Below, piece after piece: positions 7,809 through 24,640 of a stretch of DNA of 24,679 bases (positions are counted from its first letter, which is position 1; every line of letters begins with the position of its first letter). The stretch covers positions 1 through 24,679 of the IMG/VR virus record IMGVR_UViG_3300032011_000123; one strand, written 5' to 3'. The notes under the pieces were generated by a model that had not been told where the DNA came from, did not search any database, and saw nothing but the letters and a program-made list of their open reading frames with translations. The position numbers and the translations under genes were made by a program. Source of the DNA: a virus.

Positions 7809-8007
7809 TTGCGGTATCTTTTTCACGTTGCTTTTCCTCCCTTTTCATTCTGAAATACATTTTGTAGTATTTCTTTTTCATCTCTGCAAGGTAAGCAGTC
7901 TCTTCTTCATTTTCGGGATAAACCTGAGTAAATCCCCACAGAGCTTCAAGGTGAGTCATTAACCGAAGAACGGTAATAGGATCTTCAGGGTGTGCGTTGT
8001 ACGGCAT
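7783..8007 (-). CDS. Small charged helical protein, 74 residues
   Basis: MPYNAHPEDPITVLRLMTHLEALWGFTQVYP, then a strongly charged helix (EEETAYLAEMKKKYYKMYFR, MKREEKQREK) that may form a coiled coil. It overlaps the end of purC by 23 nt and the start of the primase-helicase by 26 nt. Function unknown; position next to the primase-helicase makes a helicase-loader-like or regulatory role possible but untested. Confidence 0.65.
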   Translation of the reverse strand: MPYNAHPEDPITVLRLMTHLEALWGFTQVYPENEEETAYLAEMKKKYYKMYFRMKREEKQREKDTANETQSSSQ

Positions 8008-8749
8008 CTTCCTGTTCGATCATCAGCTTCCTATCTAACAAGTCAACACAAATCTGTTGGTAAGCATCTAGTAGACGCTGACGTTGTGCCGCTAGTTCAT
8101 TAGTCGCCTTACGGTAGATATCCTTATCGAAGCTTTCATTGGTTCCTTTCTTCCATAGCCTGCAACTATCGGGACTGATTTCATCGGCTACAAGCAGCTC
8201 GCCTGTAGCAGTTGAATATCCAAGTTCAAGTTTGAAGTCAACTAGGTCATAACCAATCTCATCAAACACTCTCTTCAGTACATAGTTAACGTCATGAGCT
8301 ACGGTTGCAAGTTCATTAGGTAGGTTGATGTCATAACCCATTTTAAGGATGCGTCCAGTTGTGAGTAACGGATCATTCTTGTCGTCGTCCTTTAGGAAGA
8401 ACTCAACCAAGGCTGGTGACAGGACAGTACCTTCTTCAATTGTGGTGCCTCTACATAATCCACCCGCTGCCTTGTTACGGACAACGACTTCGATTGGAAT
8501 AATATCCACCTTCTTACAGATGATGGTGTCATTAGTAAGGCGTGTATCAATGTGAGTAGCAATGTTATTCTTCTCCAACTCTTGAAAGAGTAGCCAAGAA
8601 ATATTGCAGGTATATCCACCTTTACCTAAGTAGATCGCTGACTTATCACCATTATTAGCAGTGACAACATCATCGAACTTCAGGCAAATCTTATCAGGTT
8701 GGTAATCCTCATAGATAGATTTAGTCTTTCCTCTAATTAGCCATTTCAT
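7985..8749 (-). CDS. purC: SAICAR synthetase (phosphoribosylaminoimidazole-succinocarboxamide synthase)
   Basis: Catalyses ATP-dependent addition of aspartate to CAIR in de novo purine synthesis, in the cytoplasm. Family signatures: IRGKTKSIY at the N-terminus, IIPIEVVVRNKAAGGLCRG (PIEVVVRN is the SAICAR signature), DLVDFKLELG and VADEISPDSCRLW (the second signature). 254 residues, close to the usual ~240. purC is a known auxiliary metabolic gene of cyanophages, taken to raise purine supply during infection. It sits between the exonuclease and the primase-helicase, in the replication transcript. No key motif is missing, so it is probably functional. Confidence 0.96.
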   Translation of the reverse strand: MKWLIRGKTKSIYEDYQPDKICLKFDDVVTANNGDKSAIYLGKGGYTCNISWLLFQELEKNNIATHIDTRLTNDTIICKKVDIIPIEVVVRNKAAGGLCRGTTIEEGTVLSPALVEFFLKDDDKNDPLLTTGRILKMGYDINLPNELATVAHDVNYVLKRVFDEIGYDLVDFKLELGYSTATGELLVADEISPDSCRLWKKGTNESFDKDIYRKATNELAAQRQRLLDAYQQICVDLLDRKLMIEQEDAVQRTP

Positions 8750-13856: not shown

Positions 13857-15269
13857 TTATTCAGCACATCCAACACACATAGTGGGATCTGAATAATTGG
13901 GTAGGTCAGGGATCTTGTCTGAGTCCTCATCAATCTCATTCATATCGAATAGGTCTCTGAAGTCTTCATCTAAGGCGTTGGATATATCATCTTTGGCTTG
14001 TGTGTTCTCCATTACCTGCAGTGAGTAATACATACTTGTCTGAGGTGAGTTCAGCCAATCTTGGATAAACTCTTCGGAGTAGATAAGAATATCGCTCCAA
14101 GTGTTGAAACTATAGCCATGACAGAGTCCAGTGGACTGGAGCATCAACATGATGCCGTTAGCGACACGGTAGTAATCGTGCCAACCAACCATCTCTGCCG
14201 TTTCTACAAGACCGTAGTCATACTGAGAGATTCCAAAAGTAGAGCTGTCCCTATCAACGATGCGTCCGACCGGCGGTGCGATTTCGGGGGCGGTTGTATA
14301 GCCTGCTCTGTCTTGTTGCGAGTAGGAACATGAAGCAGTTGGTGCAATAGCAAAGGCACGATCCATTTTGGCGGCCTTAGCAACTGAAGCTGCTTGATTG
14401 ATTCCTGCTTGAAGTGCTTTTACGATTTTAACTGCTGCTGGAGTCGCATCAGAATCACCTTCTAGTGCATCAGCAAACTCTGCATACGTTACTTTTTCAA
14501 GTGATAGCAGGTTGGCTAAGCCAAGCATCCCAAGACCTACTTGCCTATCAAAATGAGGATGTAGGTATTGTCCTGTATTCTCAACACCAGTCCTACCATG
14601 AAGCTCGACAAGCTCCGTCATACCATCAACAAATGCCTGTGGTAGATCCTCTACCTTGCCTGCCGCGACGTTTATATGTTGCAACAAGCAAGTGGCTCTT
14701 GATTTAATAAATACTTCCAGACAAACGTTGGCATAAATTCTATTACCGTGCTGGTCATAACGAACCTTCGCTAGCCATACATCACCACGCATAATGCCTC
14801 GCAGCACTGCGTCACGTGTATCAGCATTAGCTACGTCCCACATCTCTTGGTTGAGATTGATGCAACGCTTAGCCCAAGGTAGTTCTGACCTAGGTGCCTC
14901 ACAGAATTCAATAACATCTGCGTGACTTAAGTCAAGATGAAGCACGACAGCCCCATTTTTATATACACCCCCCCTACGTAAAATTTCATTAATCGTTGAA
15001 TAGATTTTTCCAAAACTTACAGGACCTGATGCAACCAAGCCTTTACCGTTTTCTTCACCTTTAGGCCGTAGTTGAGATAAATGGATTGCAACACCTGCTC
15101 CATTTCTTAGGGCGTGTGAAGCAAAGCGCCAGGAGGCTTCGATACCTTCGGCACCCTCCATGCTGTCCATGACGTTAAAAATCGTGCAGCTGACTGGAAG
15201 TCGGCTTTCAGGGTTGTCTAGCCAGCTTTGAACACGGCCAGTACGTGCAATAAAATTGTTAATTGACAT
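13857..15269 (-). CDS. nrdA: Ribonucleotide reductase alpha subunit, compact class I type
   Basis: Reduces ribonucleotides to deoxyribonucleotides for phage DNA. 470 residues, far shorter than E. coli NrdA (~760), with no ATP-cone and so probably no overall activity control by dATP. Catalytic residues are all present: C28 (PVSC) and C194 (SRATC) as the redox pair, N181-x-C183-x-E185 (NVCLE), a C-terminal C465/C468 pair (CVGC), and an adjacent pair Y414-Y415 (SMYYSLQ) as in the class I radical path. Phage proteins of this size are often labelled class II; the Tyr pair and the neighbouring beta gene argue for class I. Start ATG 15269 overlaps the MazG gene by 11 nt. Confidence 0.92.
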   Translation of the reverse strand: MSINNFIARTGRVQSWLDNPESRLPVSCTIFNVMDSMEGAEGIEASWRFASHALRNGAGVAIHLSQLRPKGEENGKGLVASGPVSFGKIYSTINEILRRGGVYKNGAVVLHLDLSHADVIEFCEAPRSELPWAKRCINLNQEMWDVANADTRDAVLRGIMRGDVWLAKVRYDQHGNRIYANVCLEVFIKSRATCLLQHINVAAGKVEDLPQAFVDGMTELVELHGRTGVENTGQYLHPHFDRQVGLGMLGLANLLSLEKVTYAEFADALEGDSDATPAAVKIVKALQAGINQAASVAKAAKMDRAFAIAPTASCSYSQQDRAGYTTAPEIAPPVGRIVDRDSSTFGISQYDYGLVETAEMVGWHDYYRVANGIMLMLQSTGLCHGYSFNTWSDILIYSEEFIQDWLNSPQTSMYYSLQVMENTQAKDDISNALDEDFRDLFDMNEIDEDSDKIPDLPNYSDPTMCVGCAE

Positions 15270-15705
15270 TGAAATCTTCGGGAGGAATTGTGTTAGAAGG
15301 GGCCACTAGATCGTCTAGTGTGGGTGGTTTATAGTTATCACCTTTTAAGACCTTGCCGTCTCTGCGATATATGGGATTACCCTCATCATCTAATTTACTC
15401 ATATTTGATTTATGAATGCGATCTAACGCTTCATCTAAATCAAGGTTATAAGTAGCAGCGAATTGATAACAGACATACACAAGGTCTGCTAATTCTTTTA
15501 GAACTTCAGTTCGATTGTCCTGTGATTGACAATCGCTAGTCAAGATATCGCAGGCATCTAGGAATTCCTTAGCCTCTTCATCGATCAAACTGCATTGCAT
15601 GTTGAACAACTTGAGCCTTAGGAATCCATAGCGTGTGAAGTTATTAAGCAGTGGCTGGTTGAATGCCTTACGGAATTCGATTGCTTGTTTGAATAGGTTT
15701 ATCAT
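15259..15705 (-). CDS. mazG: MazG-like nucleoside triphosphate pyrophosphohydrolase
   Basis: 148 residues from ATG 15705 (MINLFKQAIEFRKAF). All-alpha NTP-PPase signature: LIDEEAKEFLDA (EExxE) followed by VLKELADLVYVCYQFA (ExxD). The C-terminal part (HKSNMSKLDDEG, YRRDGKVLKGDNYKPPTLDD) is the usual tail of the PRA-PH/MazG-like phage type. Cyanophage MazG hydrolyses dNTPs, with preference for dGTP and dCTP in published assays, and its link to ppGpp control is debated. Start fixed by the ATGA overlap with the IF-1 gene; the longer frame runs inside that gene. Confidence 0.85.
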   Translation of the reverse strand: MINLFKQAIEFRKAFNQPLLNNFTRYGFLRLKLFNMQCSLIDEEAKEFLDACDILTSDCQSQDNRTEVLKELADLVYVCYQFAATYNLDLDEALDRIHKSNMSKLDDEGNPIYRRDGKVLKGDNYKPPTLDDLVAPSNTIPPEDFNVN

Positions 15706-15926
15706 TTTTCTCTTAAGGTGATTCGTCCACGTGTTAAGTCGTAGGGTGATACCTCGACTAATACTTTGTCGCCTACAAGCAGTTGTATCTTTCTCGTTAT
15801 TAGCTTGCCTGATGCTCGACAAAGGCAGTGGTGACCTTCAGGTTCGTCAAGTTCAACGTTGAAATATCCGTTTCCCGACTCCTTAAAGATGACGCCTCTA
15901 GCTTCTATTACGTTCTTCTTTGTCAT
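15702..15926 (-). CDS. infA: Translation initiation factor IF-1 homologue
   Basis: 74 residues from ATG 15926 (MTKKNVIEARGVIFKESG), the size of bacterial IF-1 (72). One S1-type OB fold along its whole length: GVIFKESGNGYFNVELDE, then CRASGKLITRKIQLLVGDKV and LVEVSPYDLTRGRITLREK; the last blocks are nearly those of bacterial IF-1 (SGK...GDKV.VE..PYDL.+GRI). IF-1 binds the ribosomal A site with IF-2 and IF-3 and shapes start-codon choice. The insertion HHCLCR in the middle is Cys/His-rich, not usual. Cotranscribed with thioredoxin and MazG (28-nt and 4-nt overlaps). It may replace or modify host IF-1, or act as an RNA chaperone or antiterminator. Confidence 0.88.
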   Translation of the reverse strand: MTKKNVIEARGVIFKESGNGYFNVELDEPEGHHCLCRASGKLITRKIQLLVGDKVLVEVSPYDLTRGRITLREK

Positions 15927-16275
15927 TAGATTGATCAGGGTGAATATTGTCGATGTTCGTTTCGATGTAGGTGTAGTCGCTAATAGTTGAAGGAAGGGAT
16001 TGGATAATCGCCTTCGCTCCAACAACTTTCTCAATTGGTATTTCGCTCCTATCGTTATGAACAACGACCATAGTTGGTGTTAATTCAACACCTAGTTCCT
16101 CACACCAAGCAGTCTGCACTCCCCGTAGGGTTTTCATGTTGTAAAAGGAAATTACATCCTGCTGTCGTGTAGGTAGTTGTCGTATATGTTCGTGCAGATC
16201 TATGCAGGGCTTGCATAGTTCTTGCGTGAAAATAGCAATTGTATATTGCTTCATATTATCAAGCTTGTCTTCCAT
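15898..16275 (-). CDS. Thioredoxin/glutaredoxin-like protein
   Basis: 125 residues (118 if translation begins at ATG 16254, MKQYTIAIFTQELCKPC). Redox motif CKPC in the first strand-loop, cis-Pro segment LTPTMVVV later, both as in thioredoxin; the C-terminal ~30 residues are hydrophilic and probably disordered. The likely task is to reduce the RNR C-terminal cysteines, as RNR lies three genes downstream. T7-type polymerases use host thioredoxin as processivity factor, so a replication role is an alternative. Overlaps neighbours by 17 and 29 nt. Confidence 0.75.
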   Translation of the reverse strand: MEDKLDNMKQYTIAIFTQELCKPCIDLHEHIRQLPTRQQDVISFYNMKTLRGVQTAWCEELGVELTPTMVVVHNDRSEIPIEKVVGAKAIIQSLPSTISDYTYIETNIDNIHPDQSNDKEERNRS

Positions 16276-16761: not shown

Positions 16762-17436
16762 TTAAGCTCTCACTTGTACAGGCATGAGTAGATGTTCAAC
16801 AGTGACTTCACCTTCTAGTGGTAACCACTTTCTATCAACATGAAAGGTTTGAATCATTGGTGTTGTTGCAGCATTCATGCGCCACTTAACAACAAGGTTG
16901 CTTCCGTATTGCTTGGCTAACTTAAGAAAGTCAAGCAGGTAGGAAGGATTGAATGCAAAGGGAGCTTCTGGTTTGTTGTGGAAGTTGTCTGGAATTAGTT
17001 GATCGTAGTTTGGAAATTCAAACTTCGTATCAGTAGTCTTCCAGAACACTTTTCTAACCTCACGAGAACTACTATTAATAATCTCAGCCGTACCATCGGC
17101 AAAGAGTTCTATTGTTTTCTCGTAAGTTAGTGGGCGTTTCTTAAACGCTGCTGGATCAATAATCAGGCGCTGTCCAGGCTCTAGTTCCCCTATCTGAGTA
17201 GACCCTGCAGGTAGGGTAATCCTCATTAAGCGGTGGCCATCTGTTGCAGCAAGTGTAATATCACCAGATCCAACAGAGTCTTCGCGGTATAGCGAGATCT
17301 TGTTGATTGAAACTTTAACTGGATCAGTGCATACAACTTGCGCTACACAGTGCAGTAAATGAGCAGGTAGTGCAATCAGGAATAGTGGACTGTTGGGCTG
17401 GACTGTAGCTGGACGCTCAAGTGTCGTCGTTGTCAT
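16762..17436 (-). CDS. Short beta-type sliding clamp (DnaN-like, domains II and III only)
   Basis: 224 residues. LAATDGHRLMRITLP (ATDGHRL at 64-70) is the hallmark of DnaN domain II, FEFPNYDQLIPD (139-150) closes that domain, and FAFNPSYLLDFLKLAKQYGS plus a C-terminal LLMPVQVRA match domain III. Bacterial beta has three domains (~366 residues) and forms dimers. Domain I is absent here, so six-domain ring closure would need three subunits, as in PCNA and T4 gp45. It would tether the phage polymerase to DNA. A role as decoy or modifier of the host clamp is an alternative. Linked by ATGA overlap to the small gene upstream. Confidence 0.82.
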   Translation of the reverse strand: MTTTTLERPATVQPNSPLFLIALPAHLLHCVAQVVCTDPVKVSINKISLYREDSVGSGDITLAATDGHRLMRITLPAGSTQIGELEPGQRLIIDPAAFKKRPLTYEKTIELFADGTAEIINSSSREVRKVFWKTTDTKFEFPNYDQLIPDNFHNKPEAPFAFNPSYLLDFLKLAKQYGSNLVVKWRMNAATTPMIQTFHVDRKWLPLEGEVTVEHLLMPVQVRA

Positions 17437-17660
17437 TTAGTGTCAAGGATGATGTTGGATGCAGGCATGTAATCTTTATTGTTCAAGTACTCATCAAAGG
17501 CTGCATGTTTCTCTGCAGGTAAGTAGCCATATGCGTTGTTCTTGATTCGCTCTAGGTAAAAAGCGATTGGATATGGTGGATTTTCTAATGATGCAACGTA
17601 TGCATCACAAACCATATCGAACAGGTCGTAAACTTGAACTTCAACAGTATCTTTAGTCAT
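17433..17660 (-). CDS. Small protein of 75 residues, unknown
   Basis: From ATG 17660: MTKDTVEVQVYDLFDMVCDAY, then a Tyr/Pro-rich stretch (ENPPYPIAFYLERIKNNAYG) and EYLNNKDYMPASN. The start overlaps the preceding gene by 8 nt and the stop overlaps the clamp start as ATGA, so it is coupled to the clamp and could be its partner. No family recognised; a longer frame exists inside the preceding gene. Confidence 0.6.
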   Translation of the reverse strand: MTKDTVEVQVYDLFDMVCDAYVASLENPPYPIAFYLERIKNNAYGYLPAEKHAAFDEYLNNKDYMPASNIILDTK

Positions 17661-17865
17661 CGCAATCTTCCCAGATTTGAAGTAATTCGGCAGTAGTAAT
17701 AACACCTGCTTTTTGAGCTTCCAATAAAGGTTGCATCAAGTCATAGCAACTGAATTCAGATAAAGCATCAGTAGTTTCATCCTTCTCAGTACCGCAAGCG
17801 ATACCGGCAGGAATGAGCACCATGGCAGCTAAGACTGCAAGTATTTTTAAGTATTGGTTATTCAT
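17653..17865 (-). CDS. Small exported protein or lipoprotein, 70 residues
   Basis: From ATG 17865: MNNQYLKILAVLAAMVLIPA with a basic start and ~20 hydrophobic residues, then GIACGTEKDETTDALSEF. The Cys could be a lipid-modified residue (GIAC, a poor lipobox), or the segment may be cut by signal peptidase I. The mature part is acidic with Cys in SCYDL and EDCDD. It opens a new transcription unit just after a terminator, so it may have its own promoter upstream or depend on read-through. Possible superinfection exclusion or spanin-like role; speculative. Confidence 0.6.
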   Translation of the reverse strand: MNNQYLKILAVLAAMVLIPAGIACGTEKDETTDALSEFSCYDLMQPLLEAQKAGVITTAELLQIWEDCDD

Positions 17866-17920: not shown

Positions 17921-18586
17921 TTAGAACTCGTCTTGCTCATAGTCACCTTCAACTTGAGGTGCCTCCTCGATAACAACCTCAGCTTCCTGAGGGTTAATGG
18001 TGTGAGCAATTACAGCAACTGCGTCACGGCAGAGTTCTTCTATTCTGAGACCGTCTTTGTCACTACGAGCTTCACGGAGTGCTTCATACATTCCGTTGTC
18101 ACTCATCTTTTGTGAGCCGATACGTACAGCTGCGAAGCATGGCTTCATCTTGGAGTTACCTTTCCAAGTGTCGAAGGTAAGGCTCATAGTCAGCTGACCC
18201 TTAGCGAATACATCCATCAGTCCAGTGAGGATGCACTGCGCCCAGATGGTGGTCAAGCCTGCAGTCAGCATGACCGTGGTGCCTGTTTGTGGTGTTGTAA
18301 GGAACAGGTTTAGTTTGGTGCTTTTGTATTCACCTACTTTTTCAGCAATAGAAATGCCAGTCAGCTTTACATCACCGATTCTGGTCAGTGGGTTACCCGA
18401 TGGCTTAACAAGTGCAGACTTGCGGTCATCTCCCATGTATTGGAAGTAAACAGCATCAGAGTCTTTTACTAGTCCAACACCGATCATCATTGATACGTCG
18501 GCGTTGCTACCTCCAAGTTCACTAACAAGTTCAGTGGATAGTCCACACTCTTCTGTAGTGGTTGGAGCAGTAGATACGATGGTCAT
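17921..18586 (-). CDS. Hypothetical protein, possible OB-fold SSB-like, 221 residues
   Basis: From ATG 18586 (MTIVSTAPTTTEECG). Beta-rich core: GVGLVKDSDAVYFQYMG, KSTKLNLFLTTPQTGTTVML, then FAKGQLTMSLTFDTWKG and KMKPCFAAVRIG. A helix-rich segment (MYEALREARSDKDGLRIEEL) and an acidic tail ending EGDYEQDEF follow. An acidic tail with terminal Phe is like T7 gp2.5 and the other SSB-like gene at 10279-11016, so it may be a further ssDNA-binding or recombination protein. I cannot confirm a family. It is the single gene between hairpins at 18612-18652 and the terminator at 17876. Confidence 0.4.
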   Translation of the reverse strand: MTIVSTAPTTTEECGLSTELVSELGGSNADVSMMIGVGLVKDSDAVYFQYMGDDRKSALVKPSGNPLTRIGDVKLTGISIAEKVGEYKSTKLNLFLTTPQTGTTVMLTAGLTTIWAQCILTGLMDVFAKGQLTMSLTFDTWKGNSKMKPCFAAVRIGSQKMSDNGMYEALREARSDKDGLRIEELCRDAVAVIAHTINPQEAEVVIEEAPQVEGDYEQDEF

Positions 18587-18611
18587 TCTGTGTATAGATA
18601 AAGGAACAGAA

Positions 18612-18623
18612 GCCCCGAAGGGC
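18612..18623 (-). terminator. GCCC(UUCG)GGGC hairpin, weak terminator or 5' UTR structure
   Basis: Minus strand GCCC-TTCG-GGGC: a four-pair stem capped by a stable C(UUCG)G tetraloop, followed by TTCTGTTCCTTTATC. It lies 25 bases ahead of the start at 18586. It is either a second terminator after the GCCGCC hairpin or a stabilising 5' end for the next mRNA. Confidence 0.45.
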
Positions 18624-18636
18624 ATAAGGATATAGA

Positions 18637-24110: not shown

Positions 24111-24293
24111 TTAGCGCCAGTCAAAATGGCTCTTGTCTTCAAGTAGGCGGAATTGTTTCAGCCAGAATCTGAAGTCATTTTGATCTTCAATTGATACATG
24201 CCTTCGGTGCTTACCACCGTGCATGAACATAATTCCGATGCCTTCCTCATTAGCGAGGAAGTAAATATTTCTACCTAACTTGACGCCTTTCAT
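24111..24293 (-). CDS. Small protein of 60 residues, unknown
   Basis: MKGVKLGRNIYFLANEEGIG, IMFMHGGKHRRHVSIEDQND, then FRFWLKQFRLLEDKSHFDWR. Basic, aromatic and His-rich. Its start overlaps the end of the RlpA-like gene as ATGA, so it is coupled to it. No family recognised. Confidence 0.6.
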   Translation of the reverse strand: MKGVKLGRNIYFLANEEGIGIMFMHGGKHRRHVSIEDQNDFRFWLKQFRLLEDKSHFDWR

Positions 24294-24640
24294 AGGAACT
24301 CAAAGGTCACAGGTACAACACCTGGATCAATCATTCCTATGGCTTCAGCAGCTCCTCGTGATAGGTCAAGGCCACGTCCAGCAATGTAAGGACCACGGTC
24401 ATTGATACGAACATCAACGCATAGATCATTAATCTCGTTACAGACTTTTAGCCGTGTACCGAAAGGTAATGTCTTATGAGCAGCAGTGATTCCGTGCTGG
24501 TTATAACGTTCCCCATTAGCTGTCATGTTTCCGTGGAAACCAGGGCCATACCAGCTAGCATTTGTTCTAAATACTGCTGTCGCCGCTTGAGCTGGGAGAA
24601 TAGAGCAAAGAATTGGCAAGGCATATAGTAGTTTCTTCAT
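24290..24640 (-). CDS. RlpA-like secreted peptidoglycan enzyme (double-psi beta-barrel)
   Basis: 116 residues with signal peptide MKKLLYALPILCSILPAQA (cleavage after AQA). The mature part is one double-psi beta-barrel: ASWYGPGFHGNMTANGERYN, AAHKTLPFGTRLKV and VDVRINDRGPYIAGRGLDLS. Glu in ANGERY, His in AAHKTL and Asp in INDRGP are the conserved residues of RlpA lytic transglycosylases. There is no SPOR domain. It could cut the host wall at lysis, or modify it at entry; export by the Sec system is unusual for a phage lysin. Preceded by TATAAG and a short AT-rich gap. Confidence 0.85.
   Translation of the reverse strand: MKKLLYALPILCSILPAQAATAVFRTNASWYGPGFHGNMTANGERYNQHGITAAHKTLPFGTRLKVCNEINDLCVDVRINDRGPYIAGRGLDLSRGAAEAIGMIDPGVVPVTFEFL

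Follow-up and report, generated by a model that had tools for sequence, protein, structure and literature searches.

A short DnaN-like gene in a cyanophage genome

The DNA analyzed here (the window) is the virus record IMGVR_UViG_3300032011_000123 in its entire length of 24,679 nt (24.7 kb), in which an ORF on the minus strand encodes a DnaN-like protein of 224 aa, henceforth the short clamp. Along with genes for transaldolase and ThyX, a ribonucleotide reductase gene and a gene for a VapE-type helicase, the window contains what we take, on inspection by eye, to be psbA and the start of a family-A DNA polymerase (PolA) gene, which is incomplete in the window; because of this gene complement, we consider the virus to be a cyanophage. 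The psbA gene shows 83-90% identity in comparisons with cyanobacterial genomes. The short clamp stands at the head of a series of genes on the same strand that serve nucleotide metabolism and replication, and another gene precedes it:

16762..17436, minus strand: short DnaN-like gene, 224 aa (ORF; TIGR00663 match in two pieces; family profile match to Escherichia coli beta; AlphaFold model and VIA-align)
17433..17705, minus strand: preceding gene, not DnaN-like, whose sole PHROG match is weak and of unknown function

The stop codon of the preceding gene overlaps the ATG of the short clamp as ATGA, so the two genes are probably co-translated. The codon immediately ahead of this ATG is itself a stop, which means that no in-frame domain I is fused upstream; with the same layout shared by the related records L003 and L013 and by Synechococcus phage S-SRP02, a frame error or a misplaced start was ruled out.

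Among the other genes of the window, an IF-1 (translation initiation factor) domain (PF01176, E 2.5e-15) is encoded at 15702-16064 (minus strand), in a gene that overlaps a thioredoxin-like gene at 15898-16275. This phage also carries purC (SAICAR synthetase; 7985-8749, minus strand; E 2e-58), in a run shared with ThyX, a MazG/PRA-PH-type gene, a deaminase gene and the ribonucleotide reductase gene. The match of the ribonucleotide reductase large-chain gene (13857-15269, minus strand) to PF02867 covers residues 26-141 only, so the remainder of the chain is divergent. A 234-aa gene three genes upstream of the short clamp (17921-18625, minus strand) yielded nothing above the Pfam or PHROG thresholds, and a double-psi beta-barrel protein (RlpA-like, PF03330, E 1.7e-23) is encoded at 24290-24640 (minus strand).

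Relationship to DnaN and domain architecture

A Pfam search left the 224-aa protein unmatched. The DnaN profile TIGR00663 recognized it with an E-value of 2e-5 and a score of 23.7 bits, far below the equivalog cut-off of 137.65, and the PHROG 3007 profile covered nearly the whole protein (residues 21-220, E 9.9e-14). When a profile of 16 family members was compared with E. coli beta, the match (~1e-15) fell into two pieces, from beta residue 129 to ~252, with a loose extension to ~286, and then 312-366. The same break was obtained with TIGR00663 on the window DNA, where profile positions 164-255 are followed, after a few residues, by positions 318-366. In an alignment of 20 diverse short clamps with E. 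coli beta, occupancy is 0.06 over beta residues 1-122, ~0.8 over 129-252, 0.02 over 253-310 and 0.99 over 311-366. The reference sequence of E. coli beta in our scripts is presumably correct, its length of 366 residues and the profile-aligned stretches being consistent.

16981..17388, minus strand: equivalent of domain II, residues ~17-152 (beta ~129-252), from the 20-member alignment with E. coli beta
16771..16971, minus strand: C-terminal half of domain III, residues ~156-222 (beta ~311-366), from profiles and alignment

By these alignments, the short clamp amounts to about 1.5 domains, a complete domain II being joined to the C-terminal half of domain III; beta residues 1-122 and ~253-310 are absent, the latter gap falling at the join just ahead of the half domain. 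The AlphaFold model of the window protein (mean pLDDT 76, pTM 0.73) is consistent with this kinship: 179 of the 249 residues of E. coli beta 118-366 were aligned at 4.0 A with a Z score of 12.9 (VIA-align), and the comparison with PCNA gave a Z of ~12. In the model, only four residues are left of the second pore helix in domain II, and its position reads IKGxK in part of the enterobacterial group, both of which would weaken the case for a DNA-lining ring.

The sequence-only reading of this locus had described the protein as a clamp lacking domain I and aligned with DnaN domains II and III. Its relationship to DnaN is borne out by TIGR00663 (E 2e-5), the 16-sequence profile (~1e-15) and the model (Z ~13 against beta clamps). 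The absence of domain I likewise stands, given the stop codon before the ATG, the low occupancy over beta 1-122 and the lack of any match to a separate domain I (PF00712) in the window and 22 related records, several of the latter being fragments. Alignment with domain II also holds, but that with domain III extends to its C-terminal half only, beta ~253-310 being skipped. Since PF00712 was matched in none of the 23 records, nothing points to a split clamp whose domain I is encoded by a gene of its own, and this possibility was rejected.

The docking pocket is kept and the ring interface is lost

The residues that form the peptide-docking pocket of the E. coli clamp, as well as the main residues of its dimer interface, are listed in a 2024 review (PMC11139829). 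The short clamps retain the former and lack the latter. In the 20 diverse members, all 18 listed pocket positions are present, with a mean identity to E. coli of 0.68 in the pocket versus 0.21 elsewhere (p ~1e-7). All seven interface residues of the bacterial ring (beta I78, R103, F106, I272, L273, E298 and E304; PMC11139829) fall in the segments that are missing from the short clamps. The motifs on which the sequence-only reading had relied, ATDGHRL, FPNYDQLIPD and LLMPVQ, are indeed all there, opposite beta 171-177, 241-250 and 360-365, respectively, in the alignment; the pocket elements in the window are:

17230..17244, minus strand: TDGHR, residues 65-69, pocket subsite I (beta T172, G174, H175, R176), invariant in the 16-sequence alignment
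16990..17016, minus strand: FPNYDQLIP, residues 141-149, pocket residues P242, Q246 and L247 (beta numbering), from alignment
16939..16953, minus strand: FNPSY, residues 162-166, pocket subsite II (beta N320, Y323), from alignment
16774..16791, minus strand: LLMPVQ, residues 216-221, pocket residues beta 360-365, of cyanobacterial type, from alignment with host DnaN

The net charge of the window protein is 0, and most members are near zero or slightly negative. The family is under purifying selection, dN/dS being below 1 in every computable pair (0.05-0.33; 0.13-0.33 for the cyanophage pairs).

The pocket is of the host type

We compared the pocket with those of DnaN from 14 cyanobacterial genomes. 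The window protein reads KITGHRLPQLNYTLMPVQ at the pocket positions and most picocyanobacteria read KLTGHRLPQLNYTLMPVQ, so that 17 of the 18 positions are identical to picocyanobacterial DnaN, as against ~20% of the remainder of the protein (p 3e-10). At the seven pocket positions that differ between cyanobacteria and E. coli, the window protein, S-SRP02 and L013 have the cyanobacterial residue in all seven cases and L003 in five; none of these four has the E. coli residue at any of them. In short clamps from phages of enterobacteria, Acinetobacter and Burkholderia, 4-6 of the seven positions carry the E. coli residue, with the exception of IME_EC2 (two); in those of Vibrio and Listonella phages, 3-6 do. 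As a control for general conservation, we counted columns that are invariant in the 14 host clamps: the window protein retains 14 of 15 such columns in the pocket versus 12 of 36 elsewhere (p 8e-5).

This signal may partly reflect descent, because full-length clamps show high pocket conservation as well (18/18 between Prochlorococcus and Synechococcus, compared with 44% for the rest). Between the window protein and L003, the pocket is no better conserved than the rest, 3 of its 18 positions being different. Trees built without the pocket columns united all short clamps in one clade (support 59/54), and a grouping of the cyanophage short clamps with cyanobacterial DnaN was not rejected (AU p 0.59 and 0.39). 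The host-type pocket may thus have come down from a cyanobacterial dnaN or may track the host; the trees favor neither.

Distribution, annotation and genomic setting

The window protein has a relative in Synechococcus phage S-SRP02 (30% identity), and further relatives were found in IMG/VR contigs; distant ones occur in phages of enterobacteria, Vibrio, Acinetobacter, Burkholderia, Xanthomonas and other hosts. Two queries matched 171 and 286 phage records, and the short architecture is present in more than 280 (PHROG 3007); a scan of viral contigs with the Vibrio K249 query retrieved no relatives. In Edwardsiella phage PEi21 (L073, 4001-4528), the short-clamp match spans two adjacent annotated hypothetical ORFs (53 and 52), and this gene may therefore be broken or miscalled.

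Databases already contain the short form as a family, for the most part under names that are incorrect or bland. The best PHROG matches of the short clamps are 3007 and the processivity factor 947, and some match weakly phrog_12598, which, like phrog_3007, is labelled RusA. The annotated RusA of S-SRP02 matches other PHROGs (phrog_140, 34 and 11894) and the members of phrog_3007 are DnaN-like, so we rejected a RusA identity; the phrog_3007 label 'RusA-like Holliday junction resolvase' seems to be a misannotation, which has found its way into many phage records. In the open-access literature, we found reviews and genome notes, and no study of the architecture or function of the short form.

The genomic setting of the gene is varied. 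In several phages it is reversed within, or inserted into, structural operons: two annotators noted it as a possible moron (Kagunavirus fEg-Eco19 and Sodalis phage SO-1), and other such copies are found in Bcep781, Shewanella phage 1/41, Obolenskvirus ZC3 and Vibrio phage 1.012.O. In Acinetobacter phage 4316 and Xanthomonas phage PhiXhv-1 its neighbors are PolA and helicase genes, and in the lambdoid Hafnia phage yong1 it follows CII. In S-SRP02, it is the first of the rightward (early-region) genes, ahead of the RNA polymerase and far from the DNA polymerase. A loose scan, which overlooked annotated polymerases, detected PolA in 5 of the 22 records. Clamp-binding motifs were not above chance among the proteins of the window, and none was found in two complete phage PolA proteins, which is weak evidence because the motif is loose.

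Possible functions of the short clamp

The explanation that we prefer, with about an even chance of being correct, is that the short clamp mimics, without forming a ring, the host clamp's docking pocket and would bind host clamp-binding motifs and sequester or redirect the host's clamp partners. With domain II and the C-terminal half of domain III, the protein retains the part of DnaN in which the peptide-binding pocket is formed, and it lacks both segments by which the DnaN ring is closed, the N-terminal half of domain III as well as domain I; it would be a monomer or a small non-ring oligomer. Such a protein would be expected to bind the QLxLF-type motifs of host proteins, candidate targets being alpha of Pol III, delta of the clamp loader and repair enzymes, and the captured partners would be withheld from the host clamp during infection. 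Because the docking pocket is kept and both ring-closing parts are lost, the short clamp probably captures host proteins rather than slides on DNA. A monomeric E. coli beta (I272A/L273A) binds delta ~50 times tighter than the dimer does and cannot tether Pol III (PMC11139829), which shows that a clamp without a ring is able to capture the loader. The sequence-only reading had offered both theft of the host's clamp partners and a trimeric ring; of the two, the alignments favor the former, the pocket being the best-kept part of the protein and of cyanobacterial host type.

In favor of the pocket mimic, besides the kept, host-type pocket and the lost interface residues, we count the moron-like sites, the first place in the early region of S-SRP02, away from the polymerase, the lack of a domain I gene in the 23 records, the motif counts that do not exceed chance and the purifying selection. 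Against it, we count the position beside PolA in some phages and the replication and nucleotide-metabolism cluster of the window, which would suit a polymerase factor; the pocket that is no better conserved than the rest between the window protein and L003; and the harm that a decoy would do to phages relying on host Pol III, such as yong1.

A protein with the same pocket and the same evidence of host matching could instead be a recruiter rather than an inhibitor, delivering selected partners of the host clamp (such as ligase, Pol I or mismatch-repair proteins) to the DNA or the replication proteins of the phage, to the advantage of the latter. The gene adjoins replication genes in several phages and is present in temperate phages that use host replication, as a recruiter might require, but the protein has neither a second domain nor any evident means of anchoring to phage proteins, and the moron-like sites lie away from replication genes; we consider this role unlikely, though well worth keeping in view. 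We judge equally doubtful that the short clamp is a processivity factor of the phage family-A polymerase, acting without a ring or as an unusual oligomer, with the phage polymerase held in the pocket. Adjacency to PolA in phages 4316 and PhiXhv-1 and the PolA genes of the window virus and S-SRP02 speak for such a factor. However, the motif scan of the two PolA proteins, the few records in which the loose scan detected PolA, the distance between the two genes in S-SRP02 and the host-type pocket speak against it, and the near-zero or slightly negative net charge is not that of a basic DNA-binding tether surface.

Three further possibilities fare much worse than either of these or the pocket mimic. 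A tetrameric sliding clamp of a new kind, in which four subunits of three half-domain motifs each would assemble into a ring of 12 motifs whose composite domains have two-fold symmetry, perhaps loaded without a loader, is geometrically conceivable for subunits of 1.5 domains but is without support, and we regard it as very improbable. Similarly implausible is a degenerate, functionless clamp fragment carried as a passenger: the gene is short, mobile and poorly conserved outside the pocket, but its frames are intact, dN/dS is low in all computable pairs and the same architecture recurs in hundreds of phages. The trimeric, PCNA-like six-domain ring of the sequence-only reading, to which the size near those of PCNA and T4 gp45 and the PCNA-like fold match (Z ~12) might point, was rejected as barely credible, because it needs two full domains per subunit whereas half of the second is missing, so that three copies would provide 4.5 domains, not six, and because all seven interface residues are in the missing parts.

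If the pocket-mimic explanation is correct, phages of many hosts keep only the clamp's docking pocket, in a form that matches the host type, to catch the many host proteins that dock there, which would be a simple route to host takeover. This would assign a function to hundreds of blandly named or mislabelled phage genes and provide a naturally occurring probe for a site that antibacterial drug development is pursuing.

Comparison with known systems

The window protein shares its length class and its layout of domain II and half domain III with PHROG 3007, labelled either 'RusA-like Holliday junction resolvase' or 'DNA polymerase III beta subunit'; the cyanophage clade (the window protein, L003, S-SRP02 and L013) differs by an N-terminus longer by 16-30 aa and by the cyanobacterial-type pocket. 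With bacterial DnaN (TIGR00663), the short clamp has in common the domain II fold, half of domain III and the complete peptide-binding pocket, but without domain I, the N-terminal half of domain III and the ring interface it is not a three-domain clamp. The two-domain trimeric clamps PCNA and T4 gp45 resemble it in general fold and chain length, although their subunits have two full domains and the short clamp only ~1.5.

Herpesvirus UL42 is a non-ring processivity factor with two full domains and a basic DNA-binding face. The short clamp could likewise have a clamp fold and function without forming a ring, but it has about 1.5 domains and a net charge of 0. Finally, Gp168 of phage Twort is a clamp inhibitor that binds the DNA channel of the clamp (PMC11139829). 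In its proposed role, the short clamp would similarly be a phage protein aimed at the host clamp system, but whereas Gp168 targets the DNA channel, the short clamp is itself a piece of a clamp that bears the partner pocket.
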